This document shows, piece by piece, positions 3,660 to 22,171 of a DNA stretch of 23,081 bases (positions are counted from its first letter, which is position 1; every line of letters begins with the position of its first letter). The translations under genes were made by a program, and so were the position numbers. The DNA comes from a virus. Where the stretch lies: positions 1 through 23,081 of IMG/VR virus record IMGVR_UViG_3300032561_000137. The stretch is one strand, 5' to 3'. The notes below the pieces were generated by a model, which was given only the letters and a program-made list of their open reading frames with translations, was not told the DNA's origin and made no database searches.

Positions 3660-4352
3660 ATGAAAAAATGTAATATGTGTAAATTAGAAAAGGATTTTAA
3701 TTGCTTTAGTAAATGCAAAAACAATAATGATGGATATAAATATCATTGTAAAGAGTGTGGTAATCTCATGTCGAAAAAATATTATGAAGATAATAAAGAG
3801 AAAACATATATTAGAAATAAAAAATGGATAGATAATAATAAAGAAAAGGATAAGAAAACAAAAAAGGAATATTATAAAAATAATATTGAAAAATGTTCTC
3901 TTCTTTCAAAGAATTATAATCTAATTAATAAAGAAAAAATCAAAATACAAAAAGCTAATTATTATCTCGATAATAGGGAAAATATTCTTAAAAGAAATTA
4001 TAAATACTATTCGACTAAATTAAATGCCGATGATTTATTTAAACTTAAATGCAATTTGCGTAATCTTATTAAAAACTCCTTACACAAGAGGGGATTAAAT
4101 AAAAAAAATAAAACTGAAGTTATATTAGGGTGTTCTTTTGAAGATTTTAAATTATATTTAGAATCTAAATTCGAAGCGTGGATGAATTGGGAAAATAGAG
4201 GATTATATAATGGTGAGATAAATTACGGTTGGGACATCGACCATATAATACCATTATCTTCTGCTAAATCTGAAGATGATTTAATAAAATTAAACCATTA
4301 TACTAATTTACAGCCACTTTGTTCAAAAACAAATAGGGATATTAAAAAATAA
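3660..4352 (+). CDS. HNH homing endonuclease
   Basis: A 230-residue basic protein typical of free-standing phage HNH endonucleases. The N-terminus carries a zinc ribbon with C4/C7 (KKCNMC) and C30/C33 (CKECG). A long Lys/Asn-rich helical linker contains Y-Y-x-x-N-x-E/K repeats. The C-terminal HNH nuclease spans about 155-228, with W-D-I-D-H (D194, H195), H213, N216 in the YTNLQPLC strand, and N225 in KTNRDIK. Members of the family make a nick or double-strand break at a cognate site and spread by gene conversion. It lies alone on the plus strand between two minus-strand units, and its base composition is even more AT-rich than its neighbours, which suggests recent insertion. Length and motifs are complete, so it is probably active. 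Confidence 0.93.
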   Translation: MKKCNMCKLEKDFNCFSKCKNNNDGYKYHCKECGNLMSKKYYEDNKEKTYIRNKKWIDNNKEKDKKTKKEYYKNNIEKCSLLSKNYNLINKEKIKIQKANYYLDNRENILKRNYKYYSTKLNADDLFKLKCNLRNLIKNSLHKRGLNKKNKTEVILGCSFEDFKLYLESKFEAWMNWENRGLYNGEINYGWDIDHIIPLSSAKSEDDLIKLNHYTNLQPLCSKTNRDIKK

Positions 4353-6351: not shown

Positions 6352-6876
6352 CTATATTATATTAAATATGTTCTCCTTATTATAGAGTAAATCCATTAAA
6401 AAGTTGCGTGTATCAGTTAGTGCATAGCCTAAAAGATTTTCACCTTGCCAATTTTTTTCGTCCTCTACACCATAGTCATTTTCTTTCATGCCTATGCCCC
6501 ATATTTTATCATATGGTGATGCTTCTACTAAAGTTCTGTCGCCAGTCTTTAATAATTCAGCAAGCATATCAGGATTTTGTGTAAACTTTAAATAACAGGC
6601 ATTTTGAACAATGTCATATTTAACACTATCCCACTTAACTGCATCAAAGTTTTTAACCTCTCTACCAAGTTCTTTTTGTAACTTTGGATTAGTTGCTTTG
6701 AGTATTTTTTCTGCCGTTTGAGTATCTTTAAATACCATTGCTTTATTATACATCATGTATTGTTCTGCATGAGTAAATATAATACCAGTTTTAAGACATT
6801 TAAACTTAGATGGGTGCCATTGAGAATAAATATCAGCATTGCCCCAAAAATATATGTATTTATCGGTTTTTCTCAT
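6352..6876 (-). CDS. NADAR (YbiA-like) ADP-ribose N-glycosidase
   Basis: A 174-residue single-domain NADAR/YbiA protein. Family hallmarks in order: an N-terminal YFWGNADIYSQW motif (residues 9-20), the F-T-H-A-E-Q-Y-M-M motif (34-42), LGREVKNFD, ASPYDKIWGIG (about 118-128) and the closing WQGENLLGYAL (143-153). Length and all conserved stretches are normal, so it should be active. Family members hydrolyse N-glycosidic bonds of ribosylated substrates. Some NADAR proteins remove ADP-ribose from guanine bases and act as antitoxins to DarT-type toxins; orphan phage copies have been reported as anti-DarT factors. A counter-defence role here is therefore plausible but inferred. The gene is second in the operon, after a zinc-finger protein. 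Confidence 0.93.
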   Translation of the reverse strand: MRKTDKYIYFWGNADIYSQWHPSKFKCLKTGIIFTHAEQYMMYNKAMVFKDTQTAEKILKATNPKLQKELGREVKNFDAVKWDSVKYDIVQNACYLKFTQNPDMLAELLKTGDRTLVEASPYDKIWGIGMKENDYGVEDEKNWQGENLLGYALTDTRNFLMDLLYNKENIFNII

Positions 6877-7355: not shown

Positions 7356-8051
7356 ATGAAAGGTTATATTTATAAAATAATAAGTCCATCGGGTAGAATA
7401 TACATTGGGCAGACAATAAACTTAAAACAGCGATTAAGTAGATATAAAGGAAAACATTGCAAAACGCAAACAAAGTTGTATAGAAGTATTGAAAAGTATG
7501 GCTGGGAATCCCATATATTTGAGGTTATTGAAGAATGTTTTGTTGAACTGTTAGAAGAAAGAGAAATATTTTGGATAAAAGAATATAATAGTTTTATATT
7601 TGGGTTGAACTGTAATGAAGGCGGCATAGGTATAAAAAATATTGGACATACTGATGAAGCTAAGAAAAAAATGAGCGAAGCAGCTAAAGGCAGAGTTGTA
7701 AGTGATGAAACTAAGAAGAAAATGAGCGAATCGCATAAAGGAATTACATTCTCGGAAGAAACTAAGAAAAAAATTAGCGAATCTAATAAAGGTAAAATTA
7801 TATCAGATGAAACAAAACAAAAATTAAGTGCTGCGCAAACAAATAAAAAATACACCATGGAAGCTAAAAATAAGATGAGTGAATCAGCAAAGAAAAGAAA
7901 AAGGAGCAAAGTTTCGGAAGAAACAAAATTGAAAATTAGCGAATCACATAAAAATAAAAAAGTTTCGGAAAAAACAAAATTAAAAATGAAAAAAGCCGCA
8001 TTAGAAAGACATAAAAAATATAGGAAAAAGAAAGGTATAAAAAATAAATAA
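7356..8051 (+). CDS. GIY-YIG homing endonuclease with NUMOD3 repeats
   Basis: A 231-residue free-standing homing endonuclease. The N-terminal GIY-YIG nuclease has Y4-I-Y6 (GYIYKI), Y16-I-G18 (RIYIGQT), a conserved Arg (R26 in LKQRL) and the metal-binding Glu in the segment ELLEEREIFWIKEY. From about residue 98 the protein is built of six or seven tandem NUMOD3-type DNA-binding repeats, each like S-x-E-T-K-K-K-M/I-S-E-S-x-K-G, and it ends in a very basic tail. Family members cleave a site in an allelic locus and copy themselves there. It is alone on the plus strand between two minus-strand operons, and its stop is 2 nt from the convergent RNase H stop with no strong terminator between. Confidence 0.93.
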   Translation: MKGYIYKIISPSGRIYIGQTINLKQRLSRYKGKHCKTQTKLYRSIEKYGWESHIFEVIEECFVELLEEREIFWIKEYNSFIFGLNCNEGGIGIKNIGHTDEAKKKMSEAAKGRVVSDETKKKMSESHKGITFSEETKKKISESNKGKIISDETKQKLSAAQTNKKYTMEAKNKMSESAKKRKRSKVSEETKLKISESHKNKKVSEKTKLKMKKAALERHKKYRKKKGIKNK

Positions 8052-8053
8052 CA

Positions 8054-8521
8054 TCATGTTATGGATTCATACCATGTGTCTATAGCCCAGTTTAAATTAT
8101 TTTTGCTGTTTGATGCCGCAGTTGCTAATTCATCACAGCGATTATTGCCTGCATTAGAAGCATGTCCTTTAACCCAAATCATGTTAATAGTATAATTATC
8201 TCTTAGAGTAAGAAATTCTTTCCACAAATCTACATTTGCTTTACCCTTGAAGTTAGTTTTAACCCAATTATCTATCCAACCTTTAGAGATTGAATTAACT
8301 ACATACGCAGAATCAGAATAAATATCTAATGTTACATTTTTTACCTTAAGACATTTAATTGCTTCTATAACAGCAGTCAATTCCATCCTTTGGTTTGTTG
8401 TGTGACGAAATGAACCAGAGATTTCTTTTCTATGAGTACCTGATTCAAGTATAGCACCCCAACCACCAGGTCCGGGGTTTGTAGGCGCACAACTGCCATC
8501 AGTGTATATTGTTATAGTCAT
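8054..8521 (-). CDS. rnhA: Ribonuclease HI
   Basis: A 155-residue RNase HI of normal bacterial length, which degrades the RNA strand of RNA-DNA hybrids, for example primers in replication. The catalytic set is complete: D8 (IYTDGSC), E47 (RMELTAVIEA), D70 (YSDSAYV), and D130 in GNNRCDELA, with H120 in the flexible KGHASNAGN loop. A basic handle region (about 80-100) is present. The start overlaps the end of the acyltransferase gene by 23 nt, making it the last gene of the lipoprotein/nucleotidyltransferase/acyltransferase operon. Its job is probably phage replication rather than the envelope functions of the genes before it. Confidence 0.96.
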   Translation of the reverse strand: MTITIYTDGSCAPTNPGPGGWGAILESGTHRKEISGSFRHTTNQRMELTAVIEAIKCLKVKNVTLDIYSDSAYVVNSISKGWIDNWVKTNFKGKANVDLWKEFLTLRDNYTINMIWVKGHASNAGNNRCDELATAASNSKNNLNWAIDTWYESIT

Positions 8522-9218
8522 ATTTTTTTAATTCAGTTTCTATAATAGAATATACTTTTTGTTTTAATTCTTCCACAGTCAATCCATACGGACTAACAGG
8601 TGGCATAACAATAGCTCTATTTTTACCTGGAATTATTTTCCACCAAGCAGTATAATGCCATCTGCTAATAGTATCAGGTAAAACTATTGGCACTATACTA
8701 GTTTGTGTGTCAACCGCAATTTTAAATGCACCGTCATAGAAATTGATAAGTGTATTTTCAGTAGTATTAAATTTGCCTTCTGGAAATAAGAATATACTAT
8801 TACCATCATTAACATATTGAAGCAGTTTCTTAAAACTACTTCTCCTGCTTTCTTGAGAATTTCTATCAACCATTACAACTATTTGACGATATATTAGACC
8901 AATAATAAATTTTCGTGAAAATTCTTTATTACCTAATACTCTAAAATAATTATCTATTGCTGAGAAAATAACCATACTATCTAAATAAGATATATGATTA
9001 GCAACATAAACATATTTACCATTTGACACACTTCCAATTTTTTCGACAGGCATACCTATCATGAATAGCCAATATTTGCTCCAATATTTTACAATATTGA
9101 ATATAATTTTATCGGCATTAAATATGCTTATAAATAATGTAACTGGCAATATAATTACTATACTTGTAACAAATACAATAAGTATATACAAGATATAAAA
9201 TGGTTGAAGTATTTTCAT
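8499..9218 (-). CDS. PlsC-like 1-acylglycerol-3-phosphate acyltransferase
   Basis: A 239-residue membrane-associated acyltransferase. A hydrophobic N-terminal helix (about 7-33) anchors it. Motif I is N74-H75-ISYL-D80, the catalytic H-x4-D of the glycerolipid acyltransferase family; motif III is FPEG (145-148); motif IV-like SIVPIVLPDT is at about 174-183. PlsC enzymes transfer an acyl chain to lysophosphatidic acid at the inner membrane, although relatives acylate other lysolipids or ornithine lipids. All motifs are intact and the length is normal, so activity is likely. Its ATG shares a TAATG overlap with the upstream nucleotidyltransferase gene. A phage-encoded copy is unusual; host acquisition is plausible, and a role in membrane remodelling is inferred. 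Confidence 0.92.
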   Translation of the reverse strand: MKILQPFYILYILIVFVTSIVIILPVTLFISIFNADKIIFNIVKYWSKYWLFMIGMPVEKIGSVSNGKYVYVANHISYLDSMVIFSAIDNYFRVLGNKEFSRKFIIGLIYRQIVVMVDRNSQESRRSSFKKLLQYVNDGNSIFLFPEGKFNTTENTLINFYDGAFKIAVDTQTSIVPIVLPDTISRWHYTAWWKIIPGKNRAIVMPPVSPYGLTVEELKQKVYSIIETELKKYDYNNIH

Positions 9219-10030
9219 TAGTAGGTTATTTCATTTTCAAATGCGTCATAAAAAGGAGTTAAATCAAATTTAGATAAAGCATTTTGCTTAGAAAACCAAG
9301 CAGTTGGCATTTTCATCAAATTCTGAATTTCCCTATCAAGTTTAACTTGATTTTCCACGGACATATATTTTGGCAAATTTAAGGTATTGTTATTGAACTT
9401 ATGATTCAATTCCTCTCTTAATTCTGTTACAATTTTTTGACCATGTGCTAACCAGCGTTTTTTCTCTGTAAAATCATTTTCACTAATTGCTTTTAATTGA
9501 GCAAAGATTGCCAAAAATTCATCATTGATTAAGCGAAAATTGCCATCTAAAATAGATTGTGCAAAATAGTAACCACGCAAAATATGACCTAATGACTTAA
9601 TCTGTTCACGATGTCCTTTTGCTTTATGATAATGCTGAATATCACGCCTTGCAAAACCAAGATAACTTCTTACAATGGCATAATTTGTAAAGGCATCTTT
9701 CATATCATACAAGAAGCTTAGTGGCGTATTTTTAAAAGCATCAGAGTGTACAATTTCAAATAAAACTGTACTATCACCTCTTAATAAGTTATGCAAAAAA
9801 GTATGCAAACTTACAAATATATGATCTTTACCTTCTTCTTTATATTGCAGATGGTGATGCGATTTTAGGAAACTATTCAATTCATTTACAGATGTAGCAT
9901 ATACATAATGTATATCTACATCCGAAAATTCATCGCTAGTATTATACAATACCGAACCGAATTGACATTGAGCCAATGAAGCCATTTTCATGGCTTCAAA
10001 TGACTCAATATCTTTAATATGAATATTCAT
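9218..10030 (-). CDS. Pol-beta-superfamily nucleotidyltransferase (YcgL/RlaP-like)
   Basis: A 270-residue protein. The nucleotidyltransferase signature is G25-S26 followed by D37-V-D39 (GSVLYNTSDEFSDVDI), the metal- and NTP-binding triad region of the pol-beta superfamily. Further on are HTFLHNLLRGDSTVLFE (about 76-92), a helical segment with RSYLGFARRDI, and SLGHILRGYYFAQSIL with RLIND. This order resembles the COG3541/PF10127 group (YcgL; RNA-repair-associated nucleotidyltransferases), recalled from memory. The substrate could be an RNA end or a small molecule. It lies in a TAATG-coupled chain between the RGGFG lipoprotein and the PlsC-like gene. A second, shorter nucleotidyltransferase is at 21575-22171. 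Confidence 0.8.
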   Translation of the reverse strand: MNIHIKDIESFEAMKMASLAQCQFGSVLYNTSDEFSDVDIHYVYATSVNELNSFLKSHHHLQYKEEGKDHIFVSLHTFLHNLLRGDSTVLFEIVHSDAFKNTPLSFLYDMKDAFTNYAIVRSYLGFARRDIQHYHKAKGHREQIKSLGHILRGYYFAQSILDGNFRLINDEFLAIFAQLKAISENDFTEKKRWLAHGQKIVTELREELNHKFNNNTLNLPKYMSVENQVKLDREIQNLMKMPTAWFSKQNALSKFDLTPFYDAFENEITY

Positions 10031-10407
10031 TACGATGCAGATGAACCATGTGCTGATGAACCAAATCCACCTCTTGAAGTATAAGAAGCATGTCCTATAG
10101 AACCATGTGGCACACTTACACGGGCTACTCTACCACCCGATGTGGCTGCATAACCACCACTACGAGTTCTATATACAACCGAAGTATGATTGCAGACATG
10201 CCCGCCATAATACCCATATGAGTAATCTACATAGAATGGGTAATAATATATCATCGGTGAATAACCATAACCATCATCTACATAATAGTTATCATCCCAA
10301 TTAGGGTCGGTTAGTGTCGGGTGCCTATGTAGTGCATGTGGGTGATGATTGCAGGATGCAATCGAAGCCGCAAGCAACCCAATTGTTATTGCATTACTTT
10401 TTCGCAT
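10030..10407 (-). CDS. YgiB/DUF1190-like small lipoprotein with RGGFG motif
   Basis: A 125-residue probable lipoprotein. Its signal peptide MRKSNAITIGLLAASIASC ends in an I-A-S-C lipobox (Cys19). The mature part is low-complexity: His/Pro-rich, then Asp/Tyr-rich with YYYPFYVDYSYGYYGG, then Gly/Ser/Arg-rich, ending SRGGFGSSAHGSSAS. The closing R-G-G-F-G followed by small residues resembles the C-terminus of E. coli YgiB/YjfM (DUF1190), whose genes sit next to ygiC/yjfC. A YgiC-like ATP-grasp gene lies about 0.9 kb upstream here. The protein may be a substrate of that enzyme. Similarity is at motif level only, as the rest does not align by eye. It is linked by TAATG to genes on both sides. Confidence 0.65.
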   Translation of the reverse strand: MRKSNAITIGLLAASIASCNHHPHALHRHPTLTDPNWDDNYYVDDGYGYSPMIYYYPFYVDYSYGYYGGHVCNHTSVVYRTRSGGYAATSGGRVARVSVPHGSIGHASYTSRGGFGSSAHGSSAS

Positions 10408-10664
10408 TAGTTGGCATTTTTAGAAAGGTTAATAAACATTTGATACCTACGCCAATGAGTAACAACAGTATCTACATACTGTTCATCGCCATTAGCATCA
10501 GTATAAGTTCTTTCTGTTTCTAAGGTATCGGTTTTCATACCTAAACTTGGTATAGTATCTTTATGAGATATAATCCCAATAAAATTACCATCTGCGTTAT
10601 ATACGCTATCAGTGTAACTTACAATAGTGTTTCTTTCAGTATTGTATTGGTTAATTTCAACCAC
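10407..10664 (-). pseudogene. Downstream part of a frameshifted lipoprotein gene
   Basis: An 85-residue frame whose only start is GTG 10664, with no promoter or leader of its own. The same frame is already open upstream of the GTG and reads NNEVDKHGTCVVEINQY, so the coding signal continues leftwards in the protein. The body (YTDSVYNADGNFIGIISHKDTIP, then TDANGDEQYVDTVVTHWRRYQMFINL) looks like a secreted beta-rich domain with Thr/Asp-rich turns. It lacks its signal peptide, which is supplied in another frame at 10619-10771. Either a one-base indel splits one gene, or a -1 slip joins the parts. It ends in TAATG with the next lipoprotein gene. Confidence 0.6.
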
Positions 10665-10771
10665 ACAAGTGCCGTGTTTATCAACCTCATTGTTTGTTTT
10701 GTGGTTTCTGGTTCATCATTACATGATGTGAGCAGAAATAACGCAAAAATTGGAATAAGAAGTTTTTTCAT
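10619..10771 (-). pseudogene. Upstream part of a frameshifted lipoprotein gene (signal peptide)
   Basis: A 50-codon frame from ATG 10771. Residues 1-17 are a clear lipoprotein signal peptide, MKKLLIPIFALFLLTSC, followed by an acidic linker NDEPETTK that resembles a Bacteroidota lipoprotein export signal. After about residue 26 the frame degenerates and stops at TAA 10619-10621. A -1 change of frame near the AAAA run (about 10709-10714) would join it to the frame at 10407-10664, giving about 105-110 residues. It has its own Bacteroidota promoter 16 nt upstream. Other readings are a sequencing error or programmed slippage. Confidence 0.6.
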
Positions 10772-10787
10772 TGCTTAATAATTTTTA

Positions 10788-10819
10788 CAAAAATAGTTAA
10801 AAAATGTGAAATAGACAAA
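10788..10819 (-). promoter_or_regulatory. Bacteroidota-type promoter for lipoprotein/acyltransferase operon
   Basis: Minus strand: TTTG (10819-10816), 20 nt, TATTTTTG (10795-10788), matching TAnnTTTG. It serves the operon 10771-8054. Confidence 0.7.
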
Positions 10820-10840
10820 TAATTTATGTTAAATAAAAGT

Positions 10841-10980
10841 TAAAAAAAGAACCCTCTCGGCGTGGATGTTGCCACCGTTCACAGTTGATATAGTACGCTA
10901 ATACTAAACGGACCTGCCACCAGAATACCTTCCCGAAACTATACTTGCGTCCAAGTTTAACTACAAGGGTTCTTTTTTTA
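10841..10980. ncRNA. Candidate structured RNA enclosed by a 15-bp stem
   Basis: A 140-nt element between a stop codon and a promoter, visibly richer in G+C than its surroundings and without a plausible ORF. A perfect 15-bp outer stem (10841-10855 with 10966-10980, AGAACCCT / AGGGTTCT plus seven A/T pairs) closes it. Inside are GTGG/CCAC (10862-10865 with 10872-10875), a composite stem CCGTT/AACGG with TAGTA/TACTA (10875-10911), and ACTTG-CGTC-CAAGT (10943-10956). TGCCACC occurs twice. The outer stem gives a U-run on either strand. On the minus strand it follows directly from the gene at 10978, sharing its stop codon, so it is probably a processed 3' part of that transcript. No promoter was found for a plus-strand RNA. 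I do not recognise the family. Confidence 0.6.
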
Positions 10981-11322
10981 TTTTTTTAGCAGTTCTATAT
11001 CGGATTTATCGAAATTATCTTGCCAAGTGCTGGCGCCATCATGATAATCCATTGCGATGTCTATTGTGCCATCGGCATTATGACTTATAAGCAGGAAATG
11101 TTCATCTTCTTTCATACTTAGCACCTTAAATAAGGTATCATCTAACAATAGATATTCATCACACAAATCATTAAAGGCTTCAACCCAATCATCATAGCCA
11201 GATTTTTCTAAACCTTTATTTCTGATTGATTTAGATTTTTCTTTAACCTTTCTTTCACAGAATTGTAAAAGAGTTTCGTTAGTTAAAGTAACTTTACGGA
11301 GTTTTGCTTGTATATTTGCCAT
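10978..11322 (-). CDS. Hypothetical protein downstream of the amidoligase (114 aa)
   Basis: A 114-residue protein of unrecognised family. The N-terminal half is basic and helical (NETLLQFCERKVKEKSKSI); the C-terminal half is acidic and probably alpha/beta (LFKVLSMKEDEHFLLISHN, then DGTIDIAMDYHDG). No signal peptide is present. It starts 1 nt after the stop of the ATP-grasp gene, so the two are coexpressed and may work together, for example as an accessory of the amidoligase. Its stop codon TAA lies within the first three bases of the outer stem of the structured RNA element, which suggests that the RNA also shapes the end of this transcript. Confidence 0.75.
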   Translation of the reverse strand: MANIQAKLRKVTLTNETLLQFCERKVKEKSKSIRNKGLEKSGYDDWVEAFNDLCDEYLLLDDTLFKVLSMKEDEHFLLISHNADGTIDIAMDYHDGASTWQDNFDKSDIELLKK

Positions 11323-11323
11323 T

Positions 11324-12463
11324 TTATTCAGATATTATATGTGGTAAAAATCTTGATAAATTATCAGTAATTGGTGTTAAACTTTCACGAATACTCATAC
11401 CTGCTGCTTCGCCGCCTATAATCCAACTACCTATAATTGCATAATTATTATCAATATATGAAATTTCTGCTCTTTTTTGATATATTAAAGAAGTGGTATC
11501 ATATTCGCCATCTGTCTGTGCGGCAACTGCTAATTTATCATAAATTGTTATATTAGCACCTTCACGGCTGTAAATTGGTTTACTAACATAATCAATCATT
11601 GTATTAGGTGAATCAAAATAACACTCTAATAAGTTTGGATGATCAGGAAACATTTCCCATAAGATAGGAAGAATGCCTTTATTAGAAAGTATTGCTTTCC
11701 AGGCAGGTTCAATCCATTTAGATTGATTTTTATCTTTGATGATATTAACACCAAAATCTTCTGCTATTAACCATTCGTATGGATATAATTTGAATATATT
11801 TTTGATTGGTTGACATTCCATGTCAACAAAACATTCATGTTTTGAGTCCCAGCCAATTTCATCAATATACAAGAACTTAGTTTTAAGTCCTGCTTGATGA
11901 GCAGTGTCACGAAGATATTCAACCGTAGTAAAATCTTCGATGGATTCACGAACACAAGTAAAGTGAACTGTTTCACCATTAAAATATTCTAAGCAGCTTG
12001 CCCAGTAACCAATTAATCTTTCATGTATTGAATTGAACTGGTCTTTATCTTTAAATAAATCTTGCAACCAGAACCATTGCACAACTGAACATTCATAAAG
12101 CGATGTAGGGGTATCGGCATTGAACTCTAACATTTTAGGTTCTGAGCCGTTTGTATATGCTAAGTCAAAGCGACCGTACACACAAGGTTCTTCATTTTCC
12201 CAGCTTCTTTCGATTAAAGGAATAAGATTTTTATCAATATGGAGTTTTTCATATAGGTTGTTGTCCATAACATATTGAACAGCTTTTAAGCACATTTCGT
12301 ATAGTTCATTTGTTACGGCTTCTATTTTATCAACTTCGTTTGGTAAAAACGAGTAAAACGCACTTTCATCCCAATAGATATTATTGAGAGAATGGAAATT
12401 AAAAGATAAATCTTCTAATTTCTTTTGGTAGTTATGTCGTGGACTTATTTTGATGCGCTTCAT
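11324..12463 (-). CDS. Glutathionylspermidine synthase-like ATP-grasp amidoligase (YgiC/YjfC type)
   Basis: A 379-residue ATP-grasp enzyme of the GSP-synthetase family (PF03738), without the N-terminal amidase domain of E. coli Gss, and therefore like YgiC/YjfC in length and layout. Conserved stretches: YGRFDLAY (about 96-103), LEFNADTPTSLYE (112-124), IHERLIGYW, FKLYPYEWL, WIEPAWKAILSNKGILPILWE (252-272), HPNLLE, SKPIYSREGANI (295-306) and a final GSWIIGGEAAGMSIRES plus SRFLPH. Family enzymes form amide bonds using ATP, joining a carboxylate (such as glutathione) to an amine. The true substrate is unknown; YgiC/YjfC types are thought to modify peptides or surface proteins. It heads its operon, under the promoter at 12483-12513. 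Confidence 0.92.
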   Translation of the reverse strand: MKRIKISPRHNYQKKLEDLSFNFHSLNNIYWDESAFYSFLPNEVDKIEAVTNELYEMCLKAVQYVMDNNLYEKLHIDKNLIPLIERSWENEEPCVYGRFDLAYTNGSEPKMLEFNADTPTSLYECSVVQWFWLQDLFKDKDQFNSIHERLIGYWASCLEYFNGETVHFTCVRESIEDFTTVEYLRDTAHQAGLKTKFLYIDEIGWDSKHECFVDMECQPIKNIFKLYPYEWLIAEDFGVNIIKDKNQSKWIEPAWKAILSNKGILPILWEMFPDHPNLLECYFDSPNTMIDYVSKPIYSREGANITIYDKLAVAAQTDGEYDTTSLIYQKRAEISYIDNNYAIIGSWIIGGEAAGMSIRESLTPITDNLSRFLPHIISE

Positions 12464-14879: not shown

Positions 14880-17800
14880 ATGCTTCAAAATGATTTAACT
14901 GGTGTTACCGTCTCTGGTTCGTATGGGCGACTTGTTCAAATAGTTGATAATCTTTACTATGATGGGTTTGGAAATCCTCTTAACATAGGTGGTGGTACTT
15001 ATAGCATAGGTCCTCAAGGTGCTACTGGTCTTCAAGGTGCTACTGGTCCTCAGGGTCACAATGGTATTGATGGTGCTACTGGTCCTCAAGGTGCTACTGG
15101 TCCTCAGGGGCACAATGGTATTGATGGTGCTACTGGTCCTCAAGGCGCCACTGGTCCTCAAGGTCATAATGGTATTGATGGCGCAACTGGTCCACAGGGT
15201 TATAATGGTGTTAATGGTGCTACTGGCCCACAGGGTTTAATGGGTCCAACTGGTGCATCAGTTTATTTATATTTTGGCACATCAAGCACTTATATTATTA
15301 CTCCAGTTATTGGAGAAGTTGTTAATTTTAATACACAGCCAGGTTTAGCATATACGGAAAATCAAACAGTAATTGTTTCAAATGATTATTCAAATCTTTA
15401 TATAGAGGGGTATAATTCAGATGGTATAAATAATTATTTTTTAGGAGAAATAGATTATTATGATATTAATACAGGGTCTATGTCTATTACAGTAGATTAT
15501 TCTTATGGTGTTGGCATAACTTCTAGTTTTTGGTATATAAATCTTGGTGGAAAAATTGGTATAGAAGGCGCAACTGGCGCCAACGGTTTAAATGGTGCCA
15601 CTGGCCCGCAGGGTGATATTGGCGCCATTGGCCCACAGGGGCCACAGGGTGATTATGGCCCAGTAGGTCCAATGGGGTTAATATGGTGTGGTACTTGGGT
15701 ATCTGGGTTTACATATTCTATTGATAGTGCAGTAGGTTATGCATCTGCTTCTTGGTTTTGTACCGCTACTGTAAGTTCAATTACACCGCCGAATTTAGAT
15801 TCAACACACTGGGCATTGTTGGCTGCCCAAGGCGCACCTGGTCAAATTGGCCCGCAGGGAGCCACCGGCCCTCAAGGCGCCAACGGATTGAATGGCGCTA
15901 CCGGTACACAGGGTGCTCCTGGTAACACCGGGCCACAGGGAGCATCTGGCTCACGAGGTGCTACTGGTCCACAAGGTGCTACTGGTGCTACTGGTCCTCA
16001 GGGTGCTACGGGCGCTAATGGCTTGAATGGTGCTACTGGTACACAGGGTGCTACTGGAGCCAATGGCTTAAATGGTGCCACTGGTCCACAAGGTGCTACT
16101 GGTGCTAATGGATTAAATGGTGCTACTGGTCCACAAGGTGCTACCGGCGCTAATGGGTTGAATGGTGCTACTGGTCCACAAGGCGCTACCGGTGCTAATG
16201 GGTTGAATGGTGCTACTGGTCCACAAGGTGCTACTGGCCCAGGATTTAATGCTATATCAAATCCTGGAGCAAATAGAATTTTAGTATCTAATGGCACAAC
16301 AACTGGTGCTACTGCACAATCAAATTTAACATTTGACGGAACAACTCTAACAATAGGTACTAATTCAAATTCGGTTTATATTAATAGTAATATAACAAAT
16401 ATTAGTAGTATTGTATTTAATCAAAATCCATCTACTATATCTGCCACTACTTCTTTATTATTTTATGATAATACAGAACAAGCGTTAGCTTATTATGATG
16501 ATAGTGTTTTTACTTCACCTATACATATAGGCAGAGAAACCTTTTTTAGAGCTTATAATTTAACTGGTGCTACTATTTCAAAAGCTGGTGCTGTTCATAT
16601 AAATGGGTCATCTGGTAGTATACCTACTGTTACTTTATCATTATCTAGTAATGATTTAATTGCTAATGTAAATGGCTTAGCAAATGATGATATACCTAAT
16701 GGTTCAATTGGTTTAATTATTACTCAAGGCATAATAACTGGTGCTAATACTACAACTTTAATTAGTGGTACACCTTCGCCAGGACAACAATTATATTTAT
16801 CTGATACTATTGCTGGTAGATACTTAACAGATTTTTATTCTTTACAATACTCGTCAAGAGCAATGGTTTGTGGTTATGTTGTAGCAACTGGCTCAACAAC
16901 TGGAAAAATTTATGTTCAATTAAATAACGAAAATCTTAATCTATCTATTACTGCTAGACAAAGAAATATAGAAGATGGTAATGTTAATTCAACTGGTGCC
17001 TATTATGTAGCTAGTCCAGGTTTAACAGTATCTTCTTCAACTACATTTAATGTGCCAGCAATTAATGGTTGGATAGTTTATAATACTGGCTCTTATTCAG
17101 TTTTACCAAAAGTACAATTAATTACTTATTCTGGAGCAACTGGTGTAACTTCTTCTTTTTTAACTACTGATATAGCAACTTATGTATTAATAAGTGCATC
17201 TGCATCTTTAATACTACAAAATACTTTTCCAACACCTCAACAAAGAAGGCTTAATATTTATTTAGGCAAAATAGTACATCCTAATAAATCAAGTATTCAG
17301 AATGTTAATAATACTACAGATTATGATGTATCACCATTTTCAGCGTTAAGAGATTTATGGGTCCCATTGACATTGATTAATCAAGGTATAATTGTTTCTG
17401 CGTATTCAACAGGAACTATGAATTTTCAAACATCAACTGGCACTCTTTGGGGGAATGGTATTGGGTTTGTAATAAATCCTTTAAATCCTAATAGTGCAAC
17501 ATTAACAGGACAGTCTCCTGCTACATTTCAATATAGAACACAACTAGGCACAGGTACTTATTCAAATATAAACACTATTGATCCAACTAATTATGATGTT
17601 GGTGGGGTTATTACTTCTGTTCGTGGTTCATCAAATGCAGCAACTAATCAAAGAGTTTATATATTCCCAACAGGTGTAATAAGAGTTCAATATGGACAAC
17701 AAGTTTATTCTACTTTAGCAGCTGCGGTTGCTGGGCAACAAACTGAGCAATTTGTAGTTAATGCTAATAATTCAGAAAATGGTATATTAATAGGAATTTT

Positions 17801-20800
17801 ATCAGTTCAAAAAAATGCTACTGATTTATCTAATACTTCTCAAGCTATATTTAATTATGTTTCTAAATTTGGTGAAGTATTAGGTGGCGCATCTGGATTA
17901 TCAACTACAACTTTACAACAAGCTTATAATAACTCTTCAGGTAATCCAGAAATTATAACTAATGCTTCAAATTATGGTTTAAATATACGCCAAGGCAGTG
18001 GTTCTGATAATGACATTGTTTTAGCTATACAAAATGGCGCAGGAACAAATGTAATGTCAGTAGATGGCACTGGTAAAACTACAACTAACACATTAGCAAT
18101 TAATACTATTAGTGCTACATCTGGATTGACTAATTATTTAGTAATAGCAACAAACGGTGTAGTTTATTCGCAAACTGGTTCTATTGGTCAAGGCCCACAA
18201 GGTTCACAAGGTCCACAGGGTCCTACTGGCGCAAATGGATTGAATGGCACCACTGGTCCACAGGGAGCTACTGGTGCCACTGGTACACAAGGCGCTACCG
18301 GGGCACAAGGCGCTACTGGGCCACAGGGACCAACAGGTTCACAAGGTTTTACTGGGCCACAGGGACCAACAGGTTCACAAGGTTTAATACCTGCTGCAAG
18401 TTATATGAGGGGTTCTCGTTCAACGCAACAAACTACAAATTTATCAGCCAATAATTTAGTTGTTTTTACGCAAGTTGATAACTATAATGGTAGCGATATA
18501 ACACTTGCGACTGCATCTGGTCAAATAACACTTGCTGCAAATAAGACTTATAGAATTATAGGGCAAGTTCCTAATATAACTACCACTGCAGGAAACATGG
18601 CACTTTGTTGGTATAATGAAACCGCGGGTGCTTACATAGGTAGCATATCATCAGTATATTCACCTACTAATGGTGCTGCTTATGCAGCTTTTGGTGGCCC
18701 ATCCGAAGTATTATTGACTACAACTGCATCCACAGTAATATCTTACAGAATAACAAACAACAGTTCAGTAACAGGATTAGGAGGCAACACAGATTTTACA
18801 ACTACAGGTTCTTATCCATGGTTTGAAATAGAGGTTATATCTGGCTTTTCGCCTGCCTTAAATGGCGCAACTGGTTCACAAGGCCCAACTGGTCCACAAG
18901 GAGCAACTGGTAATGCTGGTGCACAAGGCGTTCAGGGCGCAACTGGCCCACAAGGATTTCAAGGCCCGCAGGGATTTCAAGGATATCAAGGCGCACAAGG
19001 TTTACAAGGCATACAAGGCGTTCAGGGTGCAACTGGTCCACAAGGACTTCAAGGTACACAAGGACTTCAAGGCACACAAGGTGTTCAGGGCGCAACTGGT
19101 CCACAAGGAACTCAGGGTTTTCAAGGCACTCAAGGGTTTCAAGGCACTCAAGGGTTTCAGGGCACTCAAGGTCCAACTGGTTCAAATACCATAATTTCTG
19201 GTACTGCTGGATATATTGCTTATTATCCTTCGGGTGGTGTAACTATATCTTCTAGTTCTAATATAATTTTAACTACTAACTTAGTTACATTAACACAACC
19301 TGTTTCAATCACAAATAGCACAACAGGCGCTTTATTAACCGTAAATGGTTCGCCAGCAACCGGCGGTTGGATTGCTTTTAATAATATTGGCTCTCTTTCG
19401 CCGACACTTGGCTCAAGAAGTCAAGGAACTAAACTTGTTTTATACGAAACAATTTCAACACAAAGTGCCGGATATGCCATAGGTATAGCTCCTTCTACTA
19501 TGTGGTATGGCGTTGACGTACAAGGGTCATCTCACAAATGGTATGCCAGCACAACACTTATATCAACACTTGATGGTTACGGAAATTTAAGTGTTAATAA
19601 CGGATATTTATCTTCAGCAAGTTATTCAGCAGCATTTTCTTCTGGAACAGTAATTGACTACTTCAATAATAATGGTAGAATATCTGTCGGATCAAATGCA
19701 AATATATCTTTCTATACAGGTGGTATAGGAGGCACAACAATGTCTGTTTTTGGAACTAACTCACATATAGTTTATACACCAACAACAATTAATAATACTT
19801 TAGCTGTTACTGGAAATTCTACTTTAACAGGAACTTTATTTTCTGGCACATATTCTGTATTAGGAAATATAACTGCTACTGGTTCTATATCAGTAAGTAG
19901 CAATATAATTACATCTGCTGGATTACTAACAACAGCAACTTATTCAGGTACTTATTCATCTGGTACTGTTATTGATTATGCTACAGGTAATGGTAGAATA
20001 TCTGTCGGGTCAAATGCCAATTTATCTATTTATACAGGTGGTATAGGAAATACACCTATATCAGTTTTTGGTACAAACTCAGTTATAACATATCAACCAC
20101 TAACAGTAAATGCTACTTATTCAACTACATCAGCCGGAGCAAATATTAATATAAGTGGTTATAATACAAAAGGTGGTTCTAATTATTTAGATTTCTTAGT
20201 TGCTACTAATACGGTATCTGGTGCTACAAATCCAAATAAATGGTTCCGTGTAGATAATACTGGCACATTTCAAATTGTCAATAATTTATACAATTCATCT
20301 ATATTTAGTTTAACAGATGGTGGTGCATTAACTTTAGTTGCCACTTCATCTTCGGCTGCTTTATCTATTACGCAAAATGGCGCATCAGCCGATTGTCTTT
20401 TACAATTAAACTCTCGTAATACCGGTACTTGGACCCGTATTGGCTCAAATGGATCATCATTAGCCTTAATTACTGGTGGATCTGACCTTACAAATGGAAC
20501 TCCAGCGATACATATTAGTTCTTCAAATAATGTTGGCATAAATGGCGTAGCTTCTAGAGCCCGCTTAGATATATATGGCGCTATATCTGGTTATACATCA
20601 ACTCAAACATATGCTTATTACGCATTAGGCAGCAGTAATACAAATACAGGTTATTATAATGGTACATCTCAAACCATTACACCATCTATTTGGGCAGACC
20701 AAAGAGTTTTGGCGGTAGAATTTGACGCAATCTCTGATGAAAGAATTAAAGATATTAAAGGTATTTCCAATAATGGAGAAGATTTAGATATATTGAAAAA

Positions 20801-21245
20801 AATTCAAATAACTGATTACCAATATAAAGATAAGATTGCAAATGGTACAAATAACTTTAAAAAAGTAATTGGTCAACAAGTGCAAAAAGTTTTTCCACAA
20901 GCAGTTAAAGAACAAAAAGATATAGTTCCAGATATATTCAAATTAGCAAATATTATAAACGGTGTTGTTAATTTAACAGCTGATGTTAAAAAAGGTGACA
21001 CCATTAAAATAGTATCTCAAACAGGAGAATTAAAAGTTAAAGTTATTTCTGTAAATGAAGAAAACTTTACCATAGATAAGCCCCTAAATGAGGAATGTTT
21101 TATCTATGGTAAAGAAGTTGATGATTTTGTTGTGGTAGATTATGACGCTCTATCTATGTTAAATATTTCGGCTACACAAGAAATAATTAAAAGATTGGAA
21201 TTACTCGAAAAAGAAAACGAGGAATTAAGAAAATTACTTAAGTAA
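14880..21245 (+). CDS. Giant collagen-like tail fibre with S74 intramolecular chaperone
   Basis: A 2,121-residue virion fibre protein. Five Gly-X-Y blocks, rich in GATGPQG and GPQGxxG, lie at about 44-126, 226-266, 317-452, 1103-1170 and 1328-1435; they should form rigid collagen-like triple helices. Between blocks 2 and 3 (about 268-316) is a Trp-rich module ([12 protein letters not shown] to [10 protein letters not shown]) like the short carbohydrate-binding domains of tail fibres. Between blocks 4 and 5 (about 1172-1322) is a beta-sandwich resembling C1q. Long Ser/Thr/Asn/Gly-rich beta regions fill the rest. The C-terminus holds a peptidase S74 domain: S1952-D-E-R-I-K1957 supplies the Ser-Lys dyad for self-cleavage after trimerisation, and a closing coiled coil ([16 protein letters not shown]) ends it. 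Receptor binding is inferred. Its stop lies in a palindrome shared with the next gene. Confidence 0.94.
15018..15179 (+). repeat. Three 54-nt collagen-like units (block 1)
   Basis: Three tandem 18-residue units GATG(L/P)[13 protein letters not shown]. Units differ mainly at third codon positions (cagggtcac, caggggcac, caaggtcat). Confidence 0.85.
16002..16226 (+). repeat. Five 45-nt collagen-like units (block 3)
   Basis: Exactly five tandem 15-residue units [15 protein letters not shown] (x is T in the first, P afterwards). Synonymous codons vary between units (ggc/ggt, gct/gcc, ttg/tta), so the protein repeat is better conserved than the DNA. Confidence 0.88.
19620..20106 (+). repeat. Two copies of a beta-rich fibre module
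   Basis: Residues about 1581-1643 and 1687-1747 are two copies of a module with YSSGTVIDY / [26 protein letters not shown] and SVFGTNS. The copies are about 318 nt apart and still similar at DNA level, showing internal duplication of the distal fibre shaft. Confidence 0.8.
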
Positions 21246-21578
21246 TACTTGTATCAAAACAATTAATATAGCTAATCCTAAACAAATAGCATTTTTAATT
21301 GTTAAGTTTTCTCCTATAATAAAATGTGTCATGGTCGTGAAGATTAATATACCTGTTGCAAACGATATTAATCTTTGCGGCCACATTTCACCACCAAACG
21401 CTTGTACACCAAGTGAAGTTGCTTTTAAAAATAGCCATGTTATAGGTATACCACTTAATAGCAACCAATAATTATCTTTAAATTTAGGATTTATAAATTG
21501 TAAGTTTAACTGGAACCATGTTACGGCTTGAGCAATAAATACTACTAATATAAAATAGATTACTAATAATGGTTTCAT
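21234..21578 (-). CDS. Small multi-pass membrane protein (114 aa)
   Basis: A 114-residue hydrophobic protein with about four membrane helices: [20 protein letters not shown] (3-22), [20 protein letters not shown] (38-57), [19 protein letters not shown] (70-88), and [18 protein letters not shown] (95-113). Size and helix count resemble small DMT/SMR-like transporter proteins, but I cannot name a substrate. The start overlaps the upstream nucleotidyltransferase gene as ATGA, so it is the last gene of the minus-strand operon. Its last 12 nt are shared with the convergent tail-fibre gene. A function in the host inner membrane is inferred from topology only. Confidence 0.75.
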
Positions 21579-22171
21579 TTTTCTGTTATTTTTCTAAATT
21601 CTGTTAAAGTTTTATTTCTTTCTGCTCTAAACTCCTTATCAAGTTCTTCCCAAGTCCACTGTTTAGATTGCAATTTATCCCATATATGATTCGCACATTG
21701 CCAATCAATAATTTTACCATGTTCGGCTAATTGAATGCCAAACATAGCAATACGTAAAGAATGAAACATAGATTTTATACCAATATAATAATCTCCTTGT
21801 TCTAATTTCTTTTTAGATTTTACCCATGAATTACTACATATATGTGAAATAGAATGACGTAATGAAGGTATTTTTATGTCTAAGGAAATTTCTATGCTAT
21901 TTTTCAAGATAAAGGGCGACAAAACGCACTCAATTTTTCCTATATGATGCTGTTTTAGTTGTTCTAAAAATCTATCCAATACAAGTATATGTATATTTAA
22001 ATTATCAACAACTAATTCTTTTTCAGGATATGGTGTATTAGCAATAACTAAAACATCATAATCCGACTTATCAGATGCAGTTCCGTATATTCTACTCCCA
22101 AAGACATAGACATTTTGTATTCTAGTTGGGTGTAATCCTGATTTTTCTACCACTTCGTCTAAAGTCACCAT
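21575..22171 (-). CDS. MNT-like nucleotidyltransferase (198 aa)
   Basis: A 198-residue protein with the minimal nucleotidyltransferase signature G25-S26 and D37-Y-D39 (VYVFGSRIYG, then SDKSDYDVLVI), followed by a strand LNIHILVLDRF. The C-terminal half is helical: SISHICSNSWVKSKKKLEQG, then YIGIKSMFHSLRIAMFG and a final basic helix. The helical part may be a HEPN-like or YcgL-like substrate domain. MNT-type enzymes transfer NMP to RNA, proteins or small molecules; an antitoxin-like AMPylating role is one option. It overlaps the flavoprotein gene by 7 nt and the membrane-protein gene by 4 nt. Its first 40 residues place the motif at exactly the same numbers as the enzyme at 9218-10030. Confidence 0.8.
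   Translation of the reverse strand: MVTLDEVVEKSGLHPTRIQNVYVFGSRIYGTASDKSDYDVLVIANTPYPEKELVVDNLNIHILVLDRFLEQLKQHHIGKIECVLSPFILKNSIEISLDIKIPSLRHSISHICSNSWVKSKKKLEQGDYYIGIKSMFHSLRIAMFGIQLAEHGKIIDWQCANHIWDKLQSKQWTWEELDKEFRAERNKTLTEFRKITEK

Follow-up and report, generated by a model that had tools for sequence, protein, structure and literature searches.

Which protein is the target of a YgiC/YjfC-type ligase that is carried by a phage? The question is raised by a viral DNA record of 23,081 bases (IMG/VR virus record IMGVR_UViG_3300032561_000137; this whole stretch is called the window), in which the gene of an ATP-grasp ligase (11324-12463) is accompanied on the same, minus strand by the gene of a 125-amino-acid lipoprotein with an RGGFG tail, here termed Lipo2 (10030-10407). 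The minus-strand cassette region was read within the whole record, which is regarded as a phage fragment because it encodes a collagen-like tail fibre with a chaperone-of-endosialidase domain at 14880-21245. In an initial annotation the ligase, Lipo2, a second lipoprotein and a PlsC-like acyltransferase had been combined into a possible phage module for envelope modification or peptide tagging, and the ligase, the lipoprotein and the acyltransferase are all located where it had placed them. The results described below suggest that the C-terminus of Lipo2 may be the site to which the ligase joins a polyamine.

The ligase and its tailed partner

The ligase of 379 amino acids consists of a single synthetase domain. 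GSP_synth (PF03738) is the sole Pfam domain detected (E=1e-144, 482.5 bits at a cut-off of 29.3, residues 13-377 on profile positions 2-371), and the protein also matches PHROG 6215 (E=2e-124). A sequence search of the PDB retrieved E. coli YgiC (1e-101) and YjfC (7e-94) as best matches, with trypanothione synthetase and GspS far behind. In addition, the AlphaFold2 model (predicted local distance difference test, pLDDT, 93.8) superposes over its full length on YjfC (7uk6; template modelling score, TM, 0.94) and YgiC (7uk8; TM 0.90). A bifunctional GspSA was ruled out, as an N-terminal amidase domain is missing and NCBIfam PRK10507 gives 147 bits versus a cut-off of 882. According to a profile alignment with residues counted by hand, GspS R316, D318, E330 and N332 correspond to R98, D100, E113 and N115 of the ligase, S335, S337 and R598 to T118, T120 and R359, and E391 and E392 to E176 and D177. 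The ATP/Mg and acyl-phosphate positions R98, D100, E113 and N115 show no variation in alignments of 38 and of 21 homologues. E391/E392 of GspS we take to be the acidic pair of the amine site, and the roles of the other aligned residues are likewise presumed from the structure papers on GspS. The earlier assignment of the ATP-grasp protein to the YgiC/YjfC type is borne out by the Pfam and PDB sequence matches, the alignment of the catalytic residues and the superposition of the model, and the protein is predicted to be a peptide-polyamine ligase with an intact catalytic site. Both E. coli YgiC and YjfC bear the RefSeq name peptide-spermidine ligase and, by the title as cited, act as such in vitro (Pederick 2023, pmid 36745518, as cited in PMC12568646); YgiC is cited as having no glutathionylspermidine synthase activity of the Gsp kind (Sui 2012, as cited in PMC12506659).

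The surroundings of the ligase were compared in a sample of 80 viral and 80 bacterial loci, to which loci of isolated phages and of E. coli were added; the non-redundant set comprised 160 loci (79 viral, 81 bacterial) with ligases less than 90% identical. A small protein with a signal and a C-terminal tail rich in Gly and Ser was counted as a partner if it lay at most 1.5 kb from the ligase. Such a partner exists in 144 of the 160 loci, mostly directly upstream of the ligase and often just a few bases apart, and a recognisable RGGFG-like motif is present in 135 of the 144. The co-occurrence in phages, on which the proposed module depended, was found in 71 of the 79 viral loci, next to 73 of the 81 bacterial ones. 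Many of the partnerless loci are cut by a contig end or possess variant tails (GVFGSTG, RGTFG) missed by the filter. On the strand of the ligase, 122 tailed lipoprotein-like open reading frames (ORFs) lie at most 1.5 kb away (in 456 kb of flank) versus six in 1,177 kb of distant flank, and three of these six are the true partners of loci L054, L063 and L065 barely beyond the cut-off.

The pair also recurs among phage isolates that infect Ochrobactrum, Sinorhizobium, Achromobacter, Acinetobacter and Aeromonas. Phage ligases of far lower similarity (22-25% identity; phages of Bacillus, Delftia and Pseudomonas) still have a Gly/Ser-tailed lipoprotein in adjacent position, with tails that are divergent as well. 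A divergent ligase-lipoprotein pair was observed in phage PhiW-14, too, which is known for putrescinyl-thymine in its DNA, so that polyamine supply and ligase may be linked in this phage. In E. coli the same pairing is seen in ygiB-ygiC and yjfM-yjfC, and both YgiB and YjfM carry the same kind of tail (C-terminus of YjfM: SRGGYGRSSSARGHWGG), whereas no tailed lipoprotein is encoded beside gss, the gene of the genuine glutathionylspermidine synthetase. The coupling of a YgiC-like ligase to an RGGFG lipoprotein in phages, which had been anticipated from these E. coli pairs, is real and widespread, and its outline is known for E. coli. The literature searched yielded no description of the RGGFG tail in this family, though part of these findings may already be noted in Pederick 2023 or in a survey of amidoligases (Iyer 2009).

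Lipo2 possesses a lipobox (...ASIASC) and the C-terminus SRGGFGSSAHGSSAS, encoded at 10033-10077 on the minus strand. The lipobox, the RGGFG-like tail with small terminal residues and the adjoining YgiC-type ligase place it in the functional class of DUF1190-like partners. Homology to DUF1190 itself, which had been assumed for the 125-amino-acid lipoprotein, was not recovered: Pfam DUF1190 (PF06693) gives 13.2 bits versus a cut-off of 22 (E=0.12). In the lipoprotein set A2, 11 of 14 members match this family at E up to 1, the best at 9.6e-36. Profile-profile comparison of the Bacteroidota-type with the proteobacterial lipoproteins revealed resemblance only at the N-terminal signal (MKxS...) and the tail, with none between the bodies by hhalign (probability 0.1%); beyond the Gly-rich motif, similarity thus extends to the signal region but not to the body. 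Due to the score below the cut-off and the missing body similarity, Lipo2 should not be filed as DUF1190; it appears to be a counterpart of YgiB by context, signal and tail, and no DUF1190 member on present evidence. The body of Lipo2 diverges quickly, which is why searches with this protein alone gave no close relatives among phages or viral contigs, and the PDB sequence matches to it were discarded as weak and of low complexity (best E 0.08).

The last residue of the tail

For a test of the C-terminus, the nearest ORF with the motif was taken from each locus without applying the composition filter (n=142), and as null one random residue per tail was drawn after the motif in 20,000 draws. The last residue is Ser in 62, Gly in 54, Glu in 13 and Ala in seven cases, so that these four residues occupy 136 of the 142 ends, versus a mean of 102.5 and a maximum of 120 under the null. 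On inspection, five of the six exceptions proved to be spurious ORFs and one was genuine. At a redundancy cut-off of 70% the four residues terminate 104 of 109 tails (null mean 79.1, maximum 96), at 60% 76 of 80 (58.7 and 72), and in the small sample left at 50% 34 of 37 (26.9 and 35). Furthermore, position −2 is Gly in 65% of the tails, where 27% are expected, and position −4 holds Ser in 60%. Mapped on the ligase tree, the terminal residue changes at least 40 times and the set of Gly, Ser, Ala and Glu is left once, 122 of the 123 labelled rows lying within it. If an amide-forming ligase used the carboxylate at the end of the tail as its acceptor, one would expect just such a terminal residue, constrained beyond the composition of its tail; in glutathione it is the Gly carboxylate on which GspS acts. 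The constraint, which is new here, suggests that the C-terminal carboxylate of the partner may be the acceptor of the ligase and hence leads to a testable substrate claim. The earlier idea of peptide tagging gains support from it; the polyaminylation itself we infer.

We assign a probability of about one half to the reading that the tail of Lipo2 is the substrate of the ligase, that a polyamine is joined to its C-terminus and that the modified lipoprotein acts in the envelope. The cytoplasmic ligase would use ATP to phosphorylate the C-terminal carboxylate of the flexible tail, which in Lipo2 is that of a serine, and the RGGFG motif, mostly located 7-14 residues before the end, may be its docking site. 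The activated carboxylate would then be joined to an amine of spermidine or a relative. The tail would be the physiological substrate and would be modified in the cytosol, either ahead of export or in its course, after which the lipoprotein would act in the envelope; the phage may benefit through the charge or the stability of the envelope while it infects. Superinfection exclusion or lysis, as considered in the initial annotation, would be other conceivable gains.

Several points weigh against this reading. As the ligase is cytosolic and the substrate exported, the modification must precede or accompany secretion. GspS D610, which presumably helps to bind spermidine, aligns with an arginine (R371) of the ligase. 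The tail in locus L179 is genuine and ends in TIIT, with Thr as last residue, and Met is the last residue in the divergent phage HRDY3. No partner lies near the ligase of phage Ac42, whose genome gave no match in a search with one related lipoprotein, and the loci L127, L139 and L172 have no adjacent partner either. Moreover, the constraint on the tail could be exerted by another partner, for instance a protease or the outer-membrane machinery.

Lipo1, origin and neighbouring genes

Directly upstream of Lipo2 on the minus strand lies a small lipoprotein gene, Lipo1 (10407-10771), which is split over two frames, with the lipobox start at 10771 in one and the remainder (10407-10664) in another. 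The second lipoprotein of the initial annotation is present as a gene, but not as an intact ORF; natural decay or a sequencing or assembly error may account for the break. Intact copies were found in L032, L002, L003, L118 and other loci. In L003 and L032 a Lipo1 of 117-135 amino acids follows directly after the ligase and precedes Lipo2, and in L002 two short genes separate it from the ligase. In L032, the closest relative of the window (70%), ligase, Lipo1 and Lipo2 are intact and nearly abutting. Altogether 27 homologues of Lipo1 were found. Profile matches stem from Chryseobacterium, Sphingobacterium, Mucilaginibacter, Pedobacter, Segetibacter, Paenimyroides and other Bacteroidota hosts as well as from the viral contigs L028, L031, L034 and L035, and by neighbourhood clustering Lipo1 is present in 20 loci, seven of them viral, always on the strand of the ligase. 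The intact homologue of L032 is modelled by AlphaFold2 as a small beta fold (pLDDT 88.8), to which Foldseek matched nothing in the PDB at E of 0.001 or below; a convincing Pfam or NCBIfam match was not obtained for Lipo1. A surface-export signal of acidic residues past the Cys was considered and rejected as inconsistent among the homologues. A further new result is that Lipo1, a lipoprotein without a name so far, is a third, Bacteroidota-specific component of the cassette in hosts and phages.

Five viral loci (the window, L032, L002, L003 and L028) form a supported clade that contains the window ligase, and in each of them the genes follow the order ligase, Lipo1, Lipo2. This clade sits among host and phage ligases of Bacteroidota that have Lipo1 before Lipo2 and the ligase. 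Viral and cellular labels change 22 times on the ligase tree, at least six of these changes being forced by supported branches, and therefore transfer between hosts and phages took place repeatedly. The window, from a phage of Bacteroidota, holds a copy of a bacterial cassette in its Bacteroidota form including Lipo1, exchanged with Bacteroidota hosts, as host and phage ligases interleave.

The other minus-strand genes of the region do not recur with the ligase. The PlsC-like acyltransferase (8499-9218; PF01553, E=1.5e-20), which had been counted as a member of the module, has no homologue near any other ligase locus. An RlaP-like nucleotidyltransferase (9218-10030; PF10127, 5e-7) between Lipo2 and the acyltransferase, missed in the initial annotation, and an RNase H (8054-8521), beyond the acyltransferase, were rejected as members, since no homologue accompanies the ligase in the relatives of the window. 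The same holds for a NADAR-domain protein (6352-6876; PF08719, 3e-52) and for a 114-amino-acid protein (10978-11322, minus strand) between ligase and lipoproteins, which matches phrog_6035 of unknown function at 6e-4 and has neither a Pfam match nor a homologue in related loci. NADAR genes near ligases are limited to the phages FADO and PhiW-14 (locus L022), where they stand beside ADP-ribose-phosphatase-type genes; do these genes together serve an NAD/ADP-ribose counter-defence? Elsewhere, a homospermidine-synthase-like gene of the saccharopine dehydrogenase fold adjoins the ligase-lipoprotein dyad in five loci, including phage Motura, and SMR transporter genes are present at Acinetobacter phage loci. 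Together with the DUF350, ion channel and SPFH genes of other loci, and with a survey of PSP systems in which operons of ATP-grasp, DUF1190, DUF350 and channel genes are placed in polyamine metabolism (PMC11237479), this context supports the reading that the tail receives a polyamine.

Further features of the window are a second, distinct nucleotidyltransferase of the RlaP/NTP_transf_2 kind (21575-22171) within the same phage fragment, and nine collagen-repeat matches in the tail fibre of 2121 amino acids, whose chaperone-of-endosialidase (S74) domain is C-terminal. Free-standing endonuclease genes of the HNH-like (3660-4352) and GIY-YIG/NUMOD3 (7356-8051) types are oriented opposite to their neighbours. 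A gene like the HNH-type one lies directly downstream, on the other strand, of a short ligase in L097, L098 and L100 (6001-6696), which is 59% identical to that of the window and ends after about 230 amino acids, possibly as a result of damage by the mobile endonuclease. Finally, an intergenic stretch of about 150 nucleotides (10830-10980, both strands) contains a 16-bp closing stem (AAGAACCCT...AGGGTTCTT), with runs of A and T on its flanks. It folds better than shuffled sequences (z −2.4 and −3.0), has no Rfam family and no similar DNA was found; it is possibly a structured RNA of unknown kind or a bidirectional terminator.

Alternative readings and comparison with known systems

Within the same pathway, the ligase might instead produce a small diffusible peptide-polyamine conjugate that is sensed, bound or transported by the lipoprotein, with the tail as an interaction motif. 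The nearest biochemically known enzymes, GspS and trypanothione synthetase, act on small peptides, E. coli YgiC and YjfC are described as peptide ligases (pmid 36745518, title as cited), and DUF1190 has been called metal-chelating (PMC11237479). However, such a conjugate does not predict that the last residue is confined to Gly, Ser, Ala and Glu while the interior of the tail varies, and no dedicated small-peptide gene recurs in the neighbourhood of the ligases, which makes this reading rather doubtful. It is still less probable that the C-terminus is read by another envelope machine for proteolysis, assembly or sorting and that the ligase, with its target elsewhere, merely shares an envelope-stress programme with the lipoprotein. 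In favour of this, DUF350 genes are found in 18 of our loci, ion channel and SPFH genes in phages, and in E. coli PspA-YjfK-YjfL adjoin yjfM-yjfC. These envelope genes come and go, whereas the tailed lipoprotein alone is near-universal across phyla and phages, and a specific pairwise link is therefore more likely.

That the cassette is decaying in this phage, its remaining genes having been carried along from an ancestral phage or a host, we consider improbable. The broken Lipo1 and the ligases truncated near an HNH gene would fit such a decay, but neither the ligase nor Lipo2 of the window is truncated, every catalytic residue and the tail are present, the closest relative has kept all three genes, and the break itself may be technical. 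Beyond modification of the Lipo2 tail in the window, it can be proposed tentatively that YgiC/YjfC-type ligases in general may carry out an undescribed modification by which a dedicated envelope lipoprotein would receive a polyamine at its C-terminal carboxylate, with ligase and substrate carried as a unit by phages of at least seven host genera and joined in Bacteroidota by a new third lipoprotein family. These ligases are widespread in bacteria and many phages, and no natural substrate was found for them in the literature searched; the comparative evidence now names a candidate, the neighbouring lipoprotein, with its last residue as the testable acceptor. If true, this would be a new protein modification, and it would explain why phages carry an enzyme annotated for glutathione-polyamine chemistry: its target would be a lipoprotein of the envelope whose gene they carry as well.

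GspSA (gss) and trypanothione synthetase share the ATP-grasp core and the catalytic residues with the window ligase, which in contrast to GspSA has neither an amidase domain nor a glutathione-specific context. The glutathionylspermidine synthase-like genes of phages (PHROG 6215, 137 phage records) belong to the same ligase family. They are annotated singly and with this misleading name, and in the records examined the tailed partner, the C-terminal constraint and Lipo1 are unannotated, except for a DUF1190 annotation in phage LAh_8. The PSP-associated operons (PMC11237479) resemble our loci in the combination of ligase and lipoprotein and, at several phage and bacterial loci, in DUF350, channel or SPFH genes; the window showed no recognisable PspA, DUF350 or channel gene, and its clade has Lipo1. 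The closest counterparts are YgiB-YgiC and YjfM-YjfC of E. coli, with ligases about 41% identical and of the same fold, and with signal-bearing neighbours whose RGGFG/RGGYG tails end in small residues (SMGG, HWGG) like that of Lipo2. Unlike these pairs, the pair of the window is encoded by a phage, its lipoprotein lies downstream and not upstream of the ligase and has a body unrelated by profile, and the cassette includes the Bacteroidota-specific Lipo1.

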